A stretch of DNA of 37,827 nucleotides from Deltaproteobacteria bacterium (GTDB taxonomy: Bacteria; Desulfobacterota; Syntrophorhabdia; Syntrophorhabdales; Syntrophorhabdaceae): NCBI GenBank assembly GCA_022711595.1, contig JAKLET010000032.1, positions 1-37,827 on the forward strand. Reading direction: 5' to 3'. The translations under genes and the position numbers were made by a program. Numbering within the stretch: position 1 is the first letter of the stretch; every line of letters begins with the position of its first letter. Below are positions 4,308 to 30,386 of this stretch, in pieces. A model generated the notes under the pieces. The model did not search any database and was not told the DNA's origin. It was given only the letters and a program-made list of their open reading frames with translations.

Positions 4308-4443
4308 AGTTTGAGAGTTTAAAGTTTGAAAGTTTAGGAAGCGTTAAAAAAAAGAAGGAAGAACTCCTTATAAATCGGAGAAACCAAAGAAACCGTATAA
4401 ACCAAAGAAACCGGAAAAACCGGAAAAACCAGACAAACACGAA
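4308..4443. repeat. AGTTTGA element followed by a 9-bp AAACCRNAN tract
   Basis: Bases 4308-4350 hold AGTTTGAGAGTTT-type words and GAAGCGTTAAA. From 4372 to 4443 there are eight consecutive 9-bp units (first aaatcggag, then aaaccaaag, aaaccgtat, aaaccaaag, aaaccggaa twice, aaaccagac, and a decayed one). This is the best-preserved example of the composite also seen at 20229 and 30280. Confidence 0.8.
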
Positions 4444-4532
4444 AATCAACTTTGGGGACGCCCTGGTTTCAGCTGAAAACCCCTTGCCTTCCTTAAGACT
4501 GCCTTTTTTTCATATCAATTCTTCTATTGCCT

Positions 4533-6961: not shown

Positions 6962-7039
6962 ATGGGCGGTAAAATGAAGTATGGTTTAAAACTGAATCGA
7001 GTATATTTATTATTCAATTCGAAGGGGAGAAAAAAATGA
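6962..7039 (+). CDS. Possible 25-residue leader peptide
   Basis: An ATG directly behind AAAGGAGGGAT opens a 25-codon lysine-rich frame (MGGKMKYGLKLNRVYLLFNS...). Its TGA overlaps the ATG of the Cys-repeat gene as ATGA. The Shine-Dalgarno is strong but only about three bases from the ATG, and the downstream gene has its own site (AAGGGGAG). It may be a coupling leader or chance. Confidence 0.3.
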   Translation: MGGKMKYGLKLNRVYLLFNSKGRKK

Positions 7040-8094
7040 AAAGAAGAATGATGACTGGTCTCTGCAAAACCTTCACGCTGTTCCTTTTGTCACTCGTTGG
7101 CGTGATGATGTTCACCGCATCGTCATTCGCCCTGAAGCCGCTCGGGTCGAAATGCACCACCCACCAGGAGTGTACTTCCGGACGCTGCGATAACCGGCCG
7201 CTGGCGGGTTGCGTTCCCCAGGACGGCACCGGTAACTCCGGTGAATTTTGTTCAACGCACCAACAGTGCCGCACGGGCTTATGCAGCATTTCTCAAGGCC
7301 GTTATACCGGAGTGTGCTCAGGCGGAAACCGCGCGCTCGGGCAGCAGTGCACGACTCACCAGGAATGCCGTTCCGGGCGCTGCGATAATCGGCCAGGATC
7401 GGGTTGCGTTCCCCAGGACGGCACCGGCAATACAGGCGATTTCTGTTCAACGCACCAACAGTGCCGCAGCCAGCTATGCACGATCGCCAGCGGCAAATTT
7501 ACAGGCCAATGTGCCGCCAACAATAAACCGCTCGGTTCTCCCTGCTCGTCGCACGGAGAGTGTATCTCGAAGCGCTGCGATAACAGGCCGGGGGCAGGCT
7601 GCGTCTCCCAGGACGGAGCAGGTAAAGCGAACGATTTCTGCACCACCCATCAGCAATGCCGCAGCGGCTATTGCCAGATAATAAGCGGACTCCGCGGGAC
7701 ATGCTCGGCAGGCGACCAGGGAATCGGGAAACCCTGTCATGTTTCGTCGGAATGCGCGTCAAAATATTGTGACAAGGGGGTGTGTGCCCAGCCGAAATCG
7801 AGCCAGGGAAATATGCCGCCGGCCAGCACCTGTCCGGGAGGCAAATCTTTCCAGGGTTTCGCATACGTCGGTCAGCCAAGCTGTGCGGGTGTAATGGGAG
7901 GATACCTGCAGTGCGATGCGCGAGGTTATTTCTGCTGTGCATCATCGAGCGGGGCAAAATCTCCCAGATGCGGCGGTACGGGTAAATATGAATATCAACC
8001 CGGATGCTCACAGTATAGTTCCGGGGGAGGAAGCAATATCGGTCCGCTCCTCAGGGACGGAATATTTTACGGCTGCTACAAACCTGTTTTCTGA
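7036..8094 (+). CDS. Secreted protein with 65-residue, 8-cysteine tandem repeats
   Basis: A 352-residue exported protein with a signal peptide ending near FA at residues 31-32. Three near-identical 65-residue repeats follow (36-100, 101-165, 166-229), then a shortened fourth (230-251). Each full unit has eight cysteines at fixed spacing and the words CTTHQEC, GRCDNRP, CVPQDG and FCSTHQQC. The pattern resembles Dickkopf-type cysteine-rich modules and is presumably held by disulfides outside the cytoplasm. Residues 264-352 form a different glycine- and cysteine-rich domain. I cannot assign a function; adhesion, carbohydrate binding or toxin-like roles are all open. It is expressed behind promoter-cassette copy 6, with AAGGGGAG as ribosome-binding site. 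Confidence 0.8.
   Translation: MKRRMMTGLCKTFTLFLLSLVGVMMFTASSFALKPLGSKCTTHQECTSGRCDNRPLAGCVPQDGTGNSGEFCSTHQQCRTGLCSISQGRYTGVCSGGNRALGQQCTTHQECRSGRCDNRPGSGCVPQDGTGNTGDFCSTHQQCRSQLCTIASGKFTGQCAANNKPLGSPCSSHGECISKRCDNRPGAGCVSQDGAGKANDFCTTHQQCRSGYCQIISGLRGTCSAGDQGIGKPCHVSSECASKYCDKGVCAQPKSSQGNMPPASTCPGGKSFQGFAYVGQPSCAGVMGGYLQCDARGYFCCASSSGAKSPRCGGTGKYEYQPGCSQYSSGGGSNIGPLLRDGIFYGCYKPVF
7141..7722 (+). repeat. 195-bp in-gene tandem repeats
   Basis: Three direct copies of about 195 bp encode the 65-residue units of the secreted protein. Nucleotide identity between units 1 and 2 is high, so copy number could change by recombination or slippage. Confidence 0.8.
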
Positions 8095-15952: not shown

Positions 15953-16132
15953 ATGCCCGGGAAAGAATATGAGTGCAAGGATTGCGGCAGGGCCTTCCTG
16001 GTATACGAAGATGAAAAGAGAGGGCCGAAGTGTCCCAGCTGTGAAGGAGAGAACGTGGCGCCGAAGGCGGCAAAACCGCTGCCGGAGTGGATAATACGAA
16101 GAAACAACTCGAACTGTTCGGGCTGTAATTGA
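15953..16132 (+). CDS. Small zinc-ribbon protein
   Basis: A 59-residue protein not apparent from longer reading frames. CKDCGRAF (Cys8, Cys11) and CPSCEG (Cys27, Cys30) form a rubredoxin/FmdB-like zinc ribbon, and a second pair (CSGC) sits at the C-terminus. Zinc ribbons of this size often regulate or chaperone other proteins; no partner can be named. The start is clear: TGGAGGTG lies seven bases before the ATG. It is followed immediately by a very strong hairpin, so it forms a complete single-gene transcription unit. Confidence 0.75.
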   Translation: MPGKEYECKDCGRAFLVYEDEKRGPKCPSCEGENVAPKAAKPLPEWIIRRNNSNCSGCN

Positions 16133-16182
16133 TAATTGCTCGGAATAAGACGCAAGGTGCGTCAATATTCCGAGCAATTATC
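16131..16182 (+). terminator. Very long hairpin after the zinc-ribbon gene
   Basis: A perfect 17-bp stem (16131-16147 with 16166-16182) continues inward as a 5-bp GACGC/GCGTC stem with an AAGGT loop. It overlaps the stop codon. There is no T-run on the plus strand, so it may protect or process the short mRNA as well as end it. Confidence 0.65.
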
Positions 16183-16311
16183 ATGGTTCAAGGAAAAACA
16201 TCTCCTTTTTTGCTAAAGGATTGTGCCATGGGAGGATTTGTTATATGCTTTTTTATAAGCTCATAAAGACTTTCTTCTGTATGGGCAATTTATAGTTCAT
16301 CGCACGATTTT

Positions 16312-16500
16312 TTATCGCTCCCCGGGGAGGTCTTGAATGATGTCCCGCAGATCTATCCAGTCGCTGTCCCCTTGAAATATCATCGTCCTGCCGTTGAGTA
16401 GCTTTGGAAGGCAGTCGGATGTCAGGAAGTACGCTTGAATGGGCTTAAGGTCGTTATAGACGGGCGGTTGCCCGAAATCATGGACCAGGAGGCAGTATGG
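16312..16500 (-). pseudogene. C-terminal remnant of an unidentified gene, antisense to the decarboxylase leader
   Basis: The minus strand has 63 open codons with strongly protein-like sequence (PYCLLVHDFGQPPVYNDLK ... RTMIFQGDSDWIDL) ending in TAA at 16312-16314. No start codon is available: the frame runs into the decarboxylase gene and meets a stop there. It looks like the 3' end of a gene whose 5' part was replaced. Family not recognised. Confidence 0.35.
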
Positions 16501-18125
16501 CCGAAAGCGTGATAGGGTATGTCCTCGGTTGTTTGAAGAAGCTTGGCATCAATAAGGTCTTCGGTGTTCCCGGTGATTATGCCTTTGCGGTGGACGATGC
16601 GGTCTGCAACGACAAGGAGATGCAATGGATCGGCTGCTGCAACGAATTGAACGCCGCGTATGCTGCCGACGGCTATGCGCGGATCAAAGGCCTCGCGGCC
16701 CTCTCCACGACATTCGGTGTCGGCGAGCTCTCCGCATTGTGCGGCATTGCGGGGTCTTTTACCGAGCACGTGCCCGTTATTCATATAGTGGGTATGCCGC
16801 CTGCAACGACACAGCAGGAACACAAGATAGTACACCACACCCTCGGCACAGGCCGGTTCGATCTCTTCGCGCGGATGGCTGAGCCGGCGGTCTGCGCGAG
16901 CGCCATCCTCACTCCTGAGAATGCCATCGCTGAAACGGAGCGCGTTATCAACGCGGCCCTCATGCACAGGCGCCCCGTTTATCTGGCCGTGCCCATCGAC
17001 TATGCCGAAATGCCTGCCGCTGATGTTGTCTGCCCGTCCCACGCCCCTTCGATGAGCTCTCCCGATACCCTCGAGGCAGCGGTTAACGCCATAGTAGAGA
17101 AACTCGAAGGAGCCGAAACTGCCGTCATCCTTGCCGGTTATCTCCTGAGTCGCCTGGGCCTTAAGGGCGAGGCGCAGGAACTTATCGAAGCGACGGGCCT
17201 TCCCTTTGCCACCATGGTCATGGACAAGACGTCCCTTGATGAAACACATCCTCAGTTCATGGGCATGTATGTCGGCGCCAAGATGAATCCCGAGATCAGG
17301 CAATTCATAGAGAGCTGTGACTGCGTGTTGAACCTGGGAGCACTCTGGAGCGATTTCAACACGGGTTTTTTCACGGCCCGCCTGGAAAAGGCCCGGACCA
17401 TCGCGGTACAACATCATTCCGTAAGGGTCGGTCATGCGGTCTATCCCGACGTGGAGATGGGAGACCTTATGCCAGCGCTCGCTGCGAAAGTCAGGAGAAG
17501 GAGCATCGATGTACCAAAGACCCATGGCCTTTCAGGGTCCGCGGCAGGGACCGGCGACAGGATCACGCCTGAATATCTCTATCCCCGGTGGGAGAGATTC
17601 CTTAAACCCAACGATATTATTATCGCCGAGACAGGAACAACGTCAATGGGCTTGCAATGCGCGTCGATCCCGAAAGGTGCAGTTTTTCATAACCAGACCT
17701 TGTGGGGGTCCATAGGCTGGGCCACTCCCGCAGCCTTTGGGGCGGCCATGGCTGACCCCGGCCGCCGCACGGTCCTCTTTACCGGCGAGGGATCCCATCA
17801 GCTTACCGCTCAGGAGATCAGCCAATTCGGCCGTTTTGGTCTCAAGCCCGTCATCTTCTGCCTTAACAATGATGGCTATCTCATTGAACGGTTACTTTGC
17901 AAGGAGCCGATGATCTATTACAACGATCTCGCGTCCTGGAATTATACAAAACTGCCCGAGGCCCTGGGCTGCGAGGGCTGGTATACCGCTAAGGCCGCCA
18001 GCAGGGCCGAACTTGAAGAGGCCCTGGAGAGGGCCGATACTTGCGGCACCGGCGCTTATATCGAGGTGGTGATGGATAAGATGGCCGGTCCGCCGCTGGC
18101 CATGAAGATACGCGAAGACGGATAG
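16497..18125 (+). CDS. Thiamine-diphosphate 2-keto acid decarboxylase (pyruvate/indolepyruvate decarboxylase family)
   Basis: A 542-residue enzyme that decarboxylates a 2-keto acid to an aldehyde using thiamine diphosphate and magnesium. The catalytic residues fall at the same numbers as in Zymomonas pyruvate decarboxylase: Asp27, Glu50 (CCNELNAAYAADGYAR), and His113-His114 (KIVHH). The cofactor motif GEGSHQLT...LNNDGYLIE near residues 427-460 includes the active-site glutamate. This HH pair separates decarboxylases from acetolactate synthases. The start has AGGAGG four bases upstream. The next gene, AtuA-DUF4387, begins 56 bp later, so co-transcription is likely. Pyruvate, phenylpyruvate, indolepyruvate or a branched keto acid could be the substrate. 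Confidence 0.88.
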   Translation: MAESVIGYVLGCLKKLGINKVFGVPGDYAFAVDDAVCNDKEMQWIGCCNELNAAYAADGYARIKGLAALSTTFGVGELSALCGIAGSFTEHVPVIHIVGMPPATTQQEHKIVHHTLGTGRFDLFARMAEPAVCASAILTPENAIAETERVINAALMHRRPVYLAVPIDYAEMPAADVVCPSHAPSMSSPDTLEAAVNAIVEKLEGAETAVILAGYLLSRLGLKGEAQELIEATGLPFATMVMDKTSLDETHPQFMGMYVGAKMNPEIRQFIESCDCVLNLGALWSDFNTGFFTARLEKARTIAVQHHSVRVGHAVYPDVEMGDLMPALAAKVRRRSIDVPKTHGLSGSAAGTGDRITPEYLYPRWERFLKPNDIIIAETGTTSMGLQCASIPKGAVFHNQTLWGSIGWATPAAFGAAMADPGRRTVLFTGEGSHQLTAQEISQFGRFGLKPVIFCLNNDGYLIERLLCKEPMIYYNDLASWNYTKLPEALGCEGWYTAKAASRAELEEALERADTCGTGAYIEVVMDKMAGPPLAMKIREDG

Positions 18126-18181
18126 ATGTTCGAAACCCACGGATGGAGACAAATTTCAATCCATCCGGGAAAGGAGGCGTC

Positions 18182-20224
18182 ATGTCGTATCGCATTTTAT
18201 CGTTGAACGGTGCAGTAGGATACAGTTTCCCCGAAGAGTCCCTCCAGGAGGCCATGAAGACCAGGCTGGACCTCATTGCCGATGATGGCGGAACAATGGA
18301 TGGCGGCCCCTATTACCTGGGGGAAGGGATAACGGGATTTAAGCGGCCCTCTCTGAAGCGCGACCTGTCCCTGATGATAGGTGCAGCCCTCAAGCAGGGC
18401 TGTCCCCTTGTTATCGGGACCTGCATCATGTCCGGCGACACTCCCCACATGAAGCTTACCGTCGACCTTGTAAAGGAGATATTTATAGAGCAGGGCGTGG
18501 AAAACGTGAAGGTCGCGGTCATAGAGTCCCATATCGATCCCGCCCTGATAGTCGACCGGCTCGGTGAGATAACTCCCCTGGGGCACATGCCTGCCCTCAC
18601 CCGGGAGACCGTGGAGAAGAGCAGGATAGTTGCGGCCATGGGCGTAGCCCCTTTCATCACCGCCTTGAACGAAGGAGCGCAGATAGTGCTGGCAGGGAGA
18701 GCGTGTGATGTGGCGATCTTCGCGGCCGACCCGGTGAGGCGGGGGCTGGATCCCGGTCTTGCCTATCAGACCGGGCACGTGTTGGAGTGCGGGGCCCTTG
18801 CCTGTGACCCGGGGTCTGCAAGCGACTGCCTCATGGCCGAGTTCATGGACGATGGCTCGGTGGTCTTTACGCCGCCAAACAAGGGCCGGAAGGCCACCTC
18901 TTATTCCGTCGCCGCCCATAGCCTCTATGAGGAAAACCATCCAGCCCTTCAATCGTATCCCGAGGGCGTGCTCGTCATGGAGAACACGGAATATTTCGAT
19001 GTCCCCCCGAGGTCCGCGGGCATACGAAATGCCGGGTTCATAAGCGGGCCTCTTAGCGTCAAGATCGAAGGCAGCATGTGCATCGGGGTCCGGATGGCCT
19101 CCTTCCTCTCCCTCAAAGGAACAGCGGCACTTGCAGAAGACCCTTTCCTGAGCAAGTATCTGGTCTATGGGGTCAACGCGGTGGAGAGAAACAGGCTCCT
19201 TCCCGGTGAGGAGGAACTCGGCATACTCCTCGTGGTAAGGGGAAAGGACGAGGAGACCGTAGCTTCCCTGGCAAGCACCCTGAAAGGATATCTCCTCCAC
19301 TTCGGTTATCCCGGCAGACTCACCACGGCGGGCAACATCGCCTTTCCTCTATCGCCGATCGAAGTTATACGGAAGGAGAATGACGGGCACTTTACGGGCC
19401 TCGTTATTGGAGGAACGAGAGAGCCCCTCTTCATAAAAGAAAAAGACGCTATCTTCGCAAGTGTCCTGGAACTGGGACGACAGCAATATCCGGAGTTGAT
19501 GGATGCCTGCGAGGTTGCCTTCCTTACTTCAGACAGAGAACATCCCATGATGTTCCTCGACACCATAGGGGATACCCGGGAGGAAGCGGAGAAACTTCAC
19601 GATGAAGCGCTCGCAAGGGTGAAGGATCACGTCGATCCGGACCGTCCCTCCTACCTCGCGGTGAATTGCGGGAATACCTATATATGGAGCATTTACCACA
19701 TATGGAAGAACGGTGACGCTATAAAAGAGCACCTGTTCCCGATCAAGCTTTTTAACGCCCGGGGCAGGGAGTGGGAGCTTTTGAAAGAGGTAAGACCTGT
19801 TTATGAAGAGGTGGGGGACAAGAACTATACCGGCAGCCTGGACGAGAAGGTGCTCGACGTGATCCTTGAAGTAGACCACGAAGGAAAACTGCCCGTTGGT
19901 GAAAGGCCGCTTGTTGATATGGTCAAGGTGTTGAGGAGCAAGGATGCCGGGGTGAACACCATTATCTACGACATTTTTTTCAAAGATGAACCATCTTACC
20001 GACAGGCCCTCGCATCCAACATTTTCACAAAAAGGTCCATGGCAAAGATCCTGAATATACCGGAGACGCACATTATCGGCACATACCGGGCCGATCCCTG
20101 CCATGCCATAAAGATCTCCAGGTTCCGGGAAATGATATCAGGCACTCCGGGGAGCCCGGACGGTTTCGGCGCACAGCAGCACATGAGGGTCGAGAGGATC
20201 ATCTTGCCGATCTATGATGGTTGA
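18182..20224 (+). CDS. AtuA-type (DUF1446) protein fused to DUF4387
   Basis: A 680-residue cytoplasmic protein. Residues 1 to about 440 match the acyclic terpene utilisation AtuA/DUF1446 family (ADDGGTMDGGPYYLG, LAGRACDVAIFAADP, GHVLECGALACDPG). The last 100 residues match DUF4387 (VKVLRSKDAGVNTIIYDIFF ... FGAQQHMRVERI). These two are normally separate neighbouring genes, so the fusion indicates they act in one complex. AtuA is needed for citronellol/geraniol breakdown in Pseudomonas, but its reaction is not established. I chose the ATG at 18182, with AAAGGAGG five bases upstream, over an ATG at 18143 without one. Lying behind the keto acid decarboxylase, it may take part in a catabolic pathway passing through an acyl-CoA or aldehyde. 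Confidence 0.8.
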   Translation: MSYRILSLNGAVGYSFPEESLQEAMKTRLDLIADDGGTMDGGPYYLGEGITGFKRPSLKRDLSLMIGAALKQGCPLVIGTCIMSGDTPHMKLTVDLVKEIFIEQGVENVKVAVIESHIDPALIVDRLGEITPLGHMPALTRETVEKSRIVAAMGVAPFITALNEGAQIVLAGRACDVAIFAADPVRRGLDPGLAYQTGHVLECGALACDPGSASDCLMAEFMDDGSVVFTPPNKGRKATSYSVAAHSLYEENHPALQSYPEGVLVMENTEYFDVPPRSAGIRNAGFISGPLSVKIEGSMCIGVRMASFLSLKGTAALAEDPFLSKYLVYGVNAVERNRLLPGEEELGILLVVRGKDEETVASLASTLKGYLLHFGYPGRLTTAGNIAFPLSPIEVIRKENDGHFTGLVIGGTREPLFIKEKDAIFASVLELGRQQYPELMDACEVAFLTSDREHPMMFLDTIGDTREEAEKLHDEALARVKDHVDPDRPSYLAVNCGNTYIWSIYHIWKNGDAIKEHLFPIKLFNARGREWELLKEVRPVYEEVGDKNYTGSLDEKVLDVILEVDHEGKLPVGERPLVDMVKVLRSKDAGVNTIIYDIFFKDEPSYRQALASNIFTKRSMAKILNIPETHIIGTYRADPCHAIKISRFREMISGTPGSPDGFGAQQHMRVERIILPIYDG

Positions 20225-20228
20225 AAAG

Positions 20229-20363
20229 ATAGTTTAACAGTTTGAGGGTTTGTGAGGCGGTTTAAAAAGAACAAGGAGCTTCTTTCCTTATAAACCAGAA
20301 CAACCGAACAAACCAGAGAAACCAGAGAAACCGAACAAACCGTATAAACCGAACAAACCGCTG
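20229..20363. repeat. AGTTTGA element followed by eight 9-bp units
   Basis: ACAGTTTGAGGGTTTGTGAGG at about 20238 is followed by GGAGCTTCTTTCC and then eight 9-bp units from 20292 to 20363 (aaaccagag, aaaccgaac, aaaccgtat and variants). It fills the gap between two plus-strand genes, showing the composite is not restricted to convergent pairs. Confidence 0.8.
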
Positions 20364-20406: not shown

Positions 20407-21231
20407 ATGGCGTATAGAAATCACACCATGAAGATCGATTTCCATACCCATGTTTATCCAGATCACGTGGCCCTCAGCACGGTTTCGGCGGTTCGTCAGC
20501 GGGCGGGGATCGATGCCTATGCGGACGGCACCCTGGAGGGACTGAAAAGGTCCATGGCGGCTGCCGGGATCGATCTTTCCGTCGTGGCGGCGGTGGCGAC
20601 AAAGCCTGAACAGGTCGCGTCCATTCAGCGATGGCTGACAGGCATCCGGCAACCCGGCATTGAAGCGCTGGCCGCCATGCACCCGGCCGATCCCTTGAGC
20701 TCCGGACAGATGAAAATGCTCAAGCGGGAGGGGTTTCGCGGCTTTAAACTTCACCCTGATTATCAGGATTTCTTTGTTGACGATCCCCGGATGTATCCTT
20801 TGTATGAGAAGGTGGCGGCAGAAGGCATGTTCATTCTCTTCCACGGCGGGATGGACCGCGGGCTTCCCCACCCCGTTCATGGAACACCGAAGCGTTTTGC
20901 TGCGGTTCACAAGGCCGTTCCGGAACTCTGCATGATCGTCGCCCACCTGGGAGGGGAAGATGCTTACGAGGAGGCGGTGGAACATTTACTGGGGCGGGAC
21001 GTCTATCTGGACACGTCCTTTGTGCTGCGCAAGATGCCCGGGACATTCCGGGAACGCTTCCTCAAGGGGCATCCCCCGGAACGTTTGCTTTTCGCATCGG
21101 ACAGTCCGTGGACGGATCAGGGGGAAGAACTGCGGTTCCTCCTGCAACTGCCCTACCTGACAGAGAGCGAAAAGGAAAAGATCTGCCTTTCCAACGCGGC
21201 CCGACTGCTGGGGTGGGGAAAAGCAGTTTGA
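20407..21231 (+). CDS. Amidohydrolase-superfamily metal-dependent hydrolase
   Basis: A 274-residue TIM-barrel protein of the amidohydrolase 2 (ACMSD-like, COG2159) group. Metal and catalytic positions are visible: His13 and His15 in DFHTHVYPDH, the FKLHPDYQ strand, FHGGMD near 140, VAHLGG near 179 and the final Asp in FASDSPW near 232. Members hydrolyse or decarboxylate small ring or carboxylate substrates. The start at 20407 has AAGAAGG ahead of it; an ATG at 20428 is the alternative. It follows the decarboxylase/AtuA pair by 180 bp of repeats, so a shared transcript is possible but not shown. Confidence 0.8.
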   Translation: MAYRNHTMKIDFHTHVYPDHVALSTVSAVRQRAGIDAYADGTLEGLKRSMAAAGIDLSVVAAVATKPEQVASIQRWLTGIRQPGIEALAAMHPADPLSSGQMKMLKREGFRGFKLHPDYQDFFVDDPRMYPLYEKVAAEGMFILFHGGMDRGLPHPVHGTPKRFAAVHKAVPELCMIVAHLGGEDAYEEAVEHLLGRDVYLDTSFVLRKMPGTFRERFLKGHPPERLLFASDSPWTDQGEELRFLLQLPYLTESEKEKICLSNAARLLGWGKAV

Positions 21232-21910: not shown

Positions 21911-21988
21911 AACGGTTTTTGTAGTTTCTCTGGTTATTGAACCGTACAAACCGAACAAACCGTATAAACCAGACAAACCAGAGAAACC
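21911..21988. repeat. 9-bp repeat tract with an inverted leading arm
   Basis: Five to six AAACCRNAN units at 21939-21988 are preceded at 21913-21936 by the inverted form (GGTTTTTGTAGTTTCTCTGG), which can pair with AAACCAGAGAAACC. The tract lies between two minus-strand genes and ends directly at the HD-GYP stop codon. Confidence 0.7.
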
Positions 21989-21989
21989 A

Positions 21990-27893: not shown

Positions 27894-27953
27894 CAAAAAC
27901 ATCACGTAATTCCGGTGAACTTTTTTTCGTTTCTTCAGTTTCTCCGGTTGTTC

Positions 27954-27998
27954 AAACCAGATAAACCAGATAAACCATAGAAACCGTACAAACCGGTC
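27954..27998. repeat. 9-bp repeat tract, five units
   Basis: aaaccagat twice, aaaccatag, aaaccgtac, aaaccggtc. It ends directly at the stop codon of the TraX-family gene and is preceded by GGTTGTTC and TTTCTTCAGTTTCTCC, an inverted-like lead. Confidence 0.75.
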
Positions 27999-28903: not shown

Positions 28904-28988
28904 AGATCCATTTTCGTTCTGCATCAAGATCTGCTTCGCCCTTTAGAAGACACAAACAACACGTATCTTTTCGTTTCTCTGGTTGTTC

Positions 28989-29033
28989 AAACCAAACAAA
29001 CCGGATAAACCAAAGAGACCGTACAAACCAAAG
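28989..29033. repeat. 9-bp repeat tract, five units
   Basis: aaaccaaac, aaaccggat, aaaccaaag, agaccgtac, aaaccaaag, followed by ATCCCTTCTTTAGAGG. It closes the right flank of the TraX cassette, in the same order as on the left. Confidence 0.75.
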
Positions 29034-29183
29034 ATCCCTTCTTTAGAGGACACACACAATAATATCGGAATGCCCTCCTTTTTGGCAACCCCTTAACTCA
29101 GGAATTTTTTTTATTTCATGCCTGTCTTTTTAAAAAAAAATAGCAGATGCTCGGGGCGGCATGGTAATATGAGCGGGTCCGTA

Positions 29184-30257: not shown

Positions 30258-30386
30258 AAACCGAACAAACCCAGAAAGACAGTTTGAGAGTTTATGGAGC
30301 GTTTGAAAGTTTGTGAGGCGTTAAAAGAAGGAAATCCTTATAAACCGAAGAAACAGAACAAACCGAATAAACCGAATAAACCAGAT
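30258..30386. repeat. 9-bp tract, AGTTTGA element, second 9-bp tract
   Basis: Two 9-bp units (30258-30275), then ACAGTTTGAGAGTTTATGGAG (30279-30299) with TTTGTGAGGCGTTAAAAGAAGG, then five units at 30342-30386. It lies between convergent omptin and solute-binding genes. Confidence 0.75.

Follow-up and report, generated by a model that had tools for sequence, protein, structure and literature searches.

Proteins with AtuA (DUF1446) and DUF4387 domains are widespread, and most of them carry the label 'acyclic terpene utilization' or 'unknown function'. The closest described system is a citramalate lyase, which has been deposited in the PDB under the title of a citramalate lyase - ADP - pyruvate complex (9evf), with 9erq being the same enzyme; according to these titles, the separate AtuA and DUF4387 proteins, CmlA and CmlB, are the two subunits of one citramalate lyase. 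An earlier paper (PMC4682846) reports that the methylaspartate pathway uses (S)-citramalate; it also describes, in Enterobacteriaceae, an unexplained DUF1446 gene that lies downstream of the gene for methylaspartate ammonia-lyase, the citramalate lyase itself not having been located in 2015. In this study, we analysed a stretch of 37,827 nucleotides from a Deltaproteobacteria bacterium of the Syntrophorhabdaceae (contig JAKLET010000032.1; hereafter the window), in which a gene for a thiamine diphosphate (ThDP)-dependent keto acid decarboxylase (KDC) is followed by a gene for a single protein with both AtuA and DUF4387 domains (the fusion). We think it somewhat probable that the fused protein is a one-chain lyase of the CmlA/CmlB type, which would split a citramalate-type substrate into acetate and a 2-oxo acid, and that the KDC would decarboxylate this product. 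A literature search, with most subscription journals outside its scope, gave no account of DUF4387, the fused form, the KDC pairing or the solved lyase.

The evidence for a lyase comes from both sequence and fold. Pfam recognizes the two domains of the fusion in one open frame (AtuA, E 4.9e-13; DUF4387, E 5.5e-22). In the list of open reading frames (ORFs) this frame starts at 18143; the ATG at 18182 is preceded by AAAGGAGG and gives a protein of 680 aa and a gap of 56 bp, as had been stated in an earlier, sequence-only reading of this DNA. The only PDB sequence matches of the fusion are chains A and B of the one citramalate lyase (CmlA/CmlB); with the family profile (A2), the E values are 1.8e-158 for CmlA and 1.4e-23 for CmlB. 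A confident structure model of the fusion (pLDDT 93.1, pTM 0.92) matches subunit A (9evf_A) with a Z score of 51 and an rmsd of 2.0 over 419 residues, and subunit B (9evf_B) with a TM score of 0.92 by target length. Furthermore, 33 alignment columns do not vary among 52 AtuA proteins, fused and separate, and CmlA has all of these residues too, in alignments read by eye. The sequence-only reading had taken the fusion to imply a physical complex, which agrees well with separate AtuA and DUF4387 proteins being subunits of one enzyme.

The same reading had the pathway run from a 2-keto acid or amino acid through an aldehyde to an acyl intermediate handled by AtuA-DUF4387. The two genes are adjacent on the same strand, with a strong ribosome-binding site and no terminator-like site on the + strand between them, and are probably made from one transcript; this, together with AtuA having been named for acyclic terpene catabolism, would suit a scheme in which the KDC acts first. 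However, the nearest solved homologue is a lyase holding pyruvate and ADP, not an acyl-CoA enzyme, and the AtuA core is filled in all 42 aligned fused rows, and we regard this order of steps as very unlikely. What survives of the proposal is a shared pathway; its direction is probably the reverse, the solved homologue being an enzyme that releases a 2-oxo acid.

Gene neighbourhoods in other bacteria independently favour a lyase. In Prevotella nigrescens, the genes around a separate AtuA/DUF4387 pair encode glutamate mutase, methylaspartate ammonia-lyase and fumarase, and the pair occupies the slot of the citramalate lyase that the methylaspartate pathway requires. On a Klebsiella plasmid such a pair is found near genes for fumarate hydratase and aldehyde dehydrogenases, and a planctomycete has a fused gene that overlaps the gene for a class I fumarase (mesaconase family). 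The closest fused relative of the window protein by tree (L019) has an aspartate ammonia-lyase gene after the fusion.

To place the fusion among its relatives, a collection with one genome per species (84,980 species) was scanned with three fused proteins as queries, which gave 84 relatives, of which 80 were kept. The fused form is present in 51 of these 80, making 52 fusion loci with the window, and record titles assign them to Desulfobacterota, Alpha-, Beta- and Gammaproteobacteria, Acidobacteriota, Mycobacterium, Verrucomicrobiota, Planctomycetota, Latescibacterota and Bacteroidota. ORFs at the loci (52 fusion and 10 KDC loci) were called with a codon-usage caller and checked by tblastn; a longest-ORF caller proved unsuited, with antisense frames in GC-rich loci and only 38 fusion and 7 KDC loci recovered. 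An apparent truncated fused ORF (L096) is outside the fused count. Closer to the host, three of 148 related genomes match the fusion at E<=1e-30, namely the own genome and two with separate genes, and none of the 11 congeners does so; at E<=1e-20, eight of 395 genomes of the phylum match, three of them with the fused form (the own genome, G207 and a broken copy in G403). Two Comamonadaceae loci (L025 and L067) have both fused and separate AtuA genes; in L067, the fusion is followed by KDC, TctC and the separate AtuA gene, and no gap exceeds 16 bp.

In an unrooted tree of the AtuA part, 42 fused rows lie on one side of a branch with 100/100 support and 10 separate AtuA proteins on the other. 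The view that AtuA and DUF4387 are normally two genes is thus only partly right: pairs of separate genes do occur, but fused proteins make up a large clade by themselves. This tree and the alignment A2 hold 42 of the 52 fused loci and only 10 of the separate-AtuA loci; ten fused loci (L020, L021, L029, L044, L045, L047, L048, L050, L055 and L095) were left out as broken, at a contig edge or near-copies. All 42 fused rows carry an insert of ~90 residues (about 400-490), which is missing from all 10 separate AtuA proteins and which, with the preceding segment (from about residue 344), assumes a ferredoxin-like fold in the fusion model. Structural matches other than 9evf_A (VIA-align) match mainly this ferredoxin-like part and were rejected as kin. 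The idea of a selenoprotein, raised by one in-frame TGA in two fused homologues, was also dropped: the in-frame TGA in L006 is just the terminal stop, and that in L005/L010 falls in a variable loop of an out-of-frame copy.

The KDC contains all three TPP-enzyme Pfam domains (N, M and C) in order, and among solved structures it is closest to indolepyruvate decarboxylases and to the pyruvate decarboxylase of yeast. The sequence-only reading had credited it with the full catalytic set; D27, E50, H113 and H114 are indeed present, as is the catalytic glutamate E464, but the ThDP/Mg motif is GEG (E431; residues 430-432, window 17784-17792) and not GDG. The window KDC belongs to a clade of 12 members with 100/100 support in the tree, and the motif GEG...NN is found in it and in 7 of its 11 clade mates (8/12 members), with GDG in the other 4. 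In addition, SMG is conserved at residues 383-385, where indolepyruvate decarboxylase has AFG; these GEG and SMG traits possibly point to a distinct substrate pocket. The best family model is the indolepyruvate decarboxylase equivalog TIGR03393, and because its score of 489 bits is far under the cut-off of 946, the KDC substrate is not nameable from sequence. The sequence-only reading had called enzymes of this type uncommon in strict anaerobes. Among the 148 related genomes, 16 have a KDC at E<=1e-60, including the own genome and 6 of the 11 congeners; the congener KDCs are different ones, just 38-40% identical to that of the window. A perfect 18-base inverted repeat is present at 16130-16183, ~310 bp upstream of the KDC gene.

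The pairing of the KDC with the fusion recurs in other genomes, and neither the fusion nor the pairing is therefore peculiar to this one; the sequence-only reading would have been contradicted by their absence from all other genomes, which is not what was observed. A KDC gene is next to the fusion in 10 of the 52 loci, window included, the others being from Bradyrhizobium, two Bosea, Variovorax, Xenophilus, Nitrobacter, Caballeronia, and metagenome-assembled genomes (MAGs) of Terriglobales and Desulfobacca. By comparison, no KDC match at E<=1e-10 was found in the remaining 29 of the 80 loci, which are not counted as fused. The fusion comes first in 8 of the 10 pairs and the KDC in the window and the Terriglobales MAG, with gaps of 16-69 bp where the genes are directly adjacent with clear starts; in Desulfobacca, an iron alcohol dehydrogenase (Fe-ADH) gene lies between fusion and KDC and a D-2-hydroxyacid dehydrogenase gene follows. 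In the KDC tree, 8 of the 10 paired KDCs fall into one clade (100/100), the placement of the Caballeronia KDC is uncertain (long branch), and that of Desulfobacca is in a distant clade, from which we conclude that a KDC joined the lyase at least twice. A KDC remnant of 30 residues directly after the fusion in a Variovorax locus (L033, 10061-10150), in a frame running into TctC, suggests that the KDC was lost there from an older fusion-KDC-TctC operon like that in Xenophilus. Near the Desulfobacca fusion-ADH-KDC cluster, an IscB-like protein with RRXRR and HNH domains is encoded (L010, 3285-4691).

Fifteen of the 50 fusion genomes have a KDC at E<=1e-60, in 17 copies, and 9 are within 3 kb of the fusion, against a chance expectation roughly estimated at ~0.03. 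It could be argued that the two genes merely form a regulatory unit and share no metabolite, in line with the KDC also being found away from the fusion and most fusions having none. Set against this are at least two KDC lineages beside the fusion, the occurrence of both gene orders and the excess of adjacencies over chance, and of the readings considered we give this one the least credence. Since the KDC and the fusion are genuinely paired, and in a conserved manner, they probably belong to one pathway.

For the pathway that we favour, with the lyase acting before the KDC, the two genes, their domains, the conserved neighbourhood and the resemblance to the solved lyase in sequence and fold are direct observations. 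From these we infer that the fused form is active as a lyase, and likewise its substrate, a role for ADP or ATP, co-transcription and the order of steps. At loci with a linked carboxylate transporter, this would take up the substrate; TctC genes are beside the fusion in 13 of the 52 loci and TRAP transporter genes in two (L022/L023). The fused lyase would then break the C2-C3 bond of citramalate, or of a similar 2-substituted malate, giving acetate and a 2-oxo acid, which would be pyruvate if the substrate is citramalate, and an adenine nucleotide would probably take part in this step. The KDC would convert the 2-oxo acid to CO2 and an aldehyde, and the aldehyde may be reduced or oxidized by housekeeping alcohol or aldehyde oxidoreductases. 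The AtuA step is placed before the KDC because the product of the solved lyase, a 2-oxo acid, is the substrate type of the KDC.

Several points weigh against this assignment. No KDC is present within the available flanks in 42 of the 52 fusion loci, and the KDC orthologue occurs without the fusion in four stretches examined. The solved lyase is known here from its PDB titles, and because the fusion is only 35% identical to CmlA across aligned residues and has an extra domain, its substrate may differ from citramalate. Moreover, decarboxylation of pyruvate would bring no obvious benefit to the aerobes that have the pair: it is present in Variovorax, Bosea, Bradyrhizobium and Nitrobacter, which are respiratory and oxidize pyruvate directly. 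Finally, a study of E. coli O157, which has a DUF1446 (AtuA) gene, reportedly detected no citramalate lyase activity, although expression of the pathway was not achieved in that work (PMC4682846).

It is mainly because respiratory bacteria with the pair can oxidize pyruvate without a KDC that a larger 2-oxo acid is suspected. The fused clade may cleave a larger 2-substituted malate (2-isopropyl-, 2-ethyl- or benzyl-type) to a bulky 2-oxo acid for which no oxidative decarboxylase is at hand, hence the KDC. This would be consistent with indolepyruvate decarboxylase being the best family model, although under its cut-off, and with KDC neighbours being confined to a 33-row subclade of the fusion tree and absent from the 9-row subclade. 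On the other hand, none of the neighbouring genes points to such a substrate, pyruvate is the ligand in the solved homologue and sequence is not a reliable guide to KDC pockets; we consider a larger substrate possible but rather unlikely. More speculative still is the idea that the KDC-linked fusions are a separate class of ATP/ADP-linked lyases of bulky 2-alkyl- or 2-arylmalates, forming an undescribed two-enzyme catabolic module spread between soil and sediment bacteria. The substrates would then be compounds such as 2-isopropylmalate or plant benzylmalates (eucomic acid), with the 2-oxo acid passed to the partner KDC and turned into an aldehyde.

The host genome contains a single DUF4387 protein, one KDC at E<=1e-60 and a citramalate synthase (770 bits, cut-off 450), as well as one class I fumarase subunit, two Fe-ADHs and two proteins of the aldehyde:ferredoxin oxidoreductase (AFOR) family. 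With the synthase, Fe-ADHs and AFOR-family proteins, both a source of citramalate and sinks for aldehydes exist. Citramalate synthase generally makes the (R) form, in contrast to the (S) form of the methylaspartate pathway. The synthase also bears on a reading in which AtuA-DUF4387 runs in reverse, condensing pyruvate and acetate to citramalate at the cost of ATP while the KDC drains pyruvate, so that the two would share a substrate and not a sequence of steps. The ADP in the solved complex fits an ATP-linked reaction in either direction, but a citramalate synthase scoring well above its cut-off is already present in the genome, and the TctC and TRAP genes next to fusions in other genomes point to import and degradation; we hold the reverse reaction to be improbable.

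Table 1. Features of the KDC-fusion locus (window coordinates)
Feature	Position	Strand	Basis
KDC: ThDP-dependent 2-oxo acid decarboxylase, pyruvate/indolepyruvate decarboxylase type, 542 aa	16497..18125	+	ORF, Pfam, PDB matches, clade
Intergenic gap, 56 bp, with AAAGGAGG ribosome-binding site; no terminator-like site on + strand	18126..18181	+	
Single-chain AtuA-DUF4387 protein, 680 aa	18182..20224	+	ORF, Pfam, alignment, structure model
AtuA (CmlA-like) core, residues 1-395	18182..19366	+	Aligns with 9erq/9evf chain A
Insert, residues about 400-490	19379..19651	+	Alignment, structure model
C-terminal AtuA strand (SIYH segment), residues 500-535	19679..19786	+	Alignments
Linker, residues 536-576	19787..19909	+	Alignments
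DUF4387 (CmlB-like) domain	19910..20191	+	Pfam, sequence and fold match

Downstream of the pair, an amidohydrolase gene (20407-21231) is kept at 82-86% in 8 of the 11 congeners. Beside it in these eight loci are a methyltransferase gene in two and the 23341-23814 gene in one, and none of the other window genes tested. As its neighbours are not kept in the congeners, these loci do not offer a clean empty site, and the amidohydrolase probably does not belong to the module; in L004, a gene resembling an amidohydrolase, named by eye, lies near a separate AtuA pair, which was taken as chance. Intergenic arrays with a 9-base period and units AAACCNNAN are found at 4372-4445, 20292-20360, 21940-21989, 27953-27994, 28988-29034 and 30340-30382, some with nearby inverted arms. 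Four such units in a row give 80 overlapping matches in the own genome and none in the 11 congeners or in a reversed-pattern control; the arrays are a species-specific dispersed repeat. In an ORF without a Pfam match (7036-8094), a unit of 195 bases is present twice in tandem at 7138-7535, the copies being 73% alike. No Rfam match was found within the window.

The lyase link, the single-chain clade and the recurrent KDC together give a testable reaction and pathway order. If correct, they put the 'terpene utilization' label in question, and a substrate bulkier than citramalate would mean a new catabolic route. Compared with CmlA and CmlB (9erq, 9evf), the window protein is alike in sequence, fold, the 33 invariant AtuA residues and the DUF4387 domain; it differs in being one chain in place of two subunits, for which reason we call it CmlAB-like and not CmlAB, in its insert and ~40-residue linker, and in having a KDC neighbour. 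A second comparison is with the CitDEF-type citramalate lyase (PMC4682846) of the clostridial methylaspartate pathway, an enzyme that depends on an acyl carrier protein. The overall reaction is expected to be the same, whereas Pfam gives only AtuA and DUF4387 in the fusion and no citrate-lyase-type domain. The KDC, in turn, resembles the indolepyruvate and pyruvate decarboxylases 8zk6, 1ovm and 1qpb, its best matches across nearly the full length, in the three domains and in D27, E50, H113-H114 and E464, and is unlike them in having GEG at the Mg/ThDP motif.

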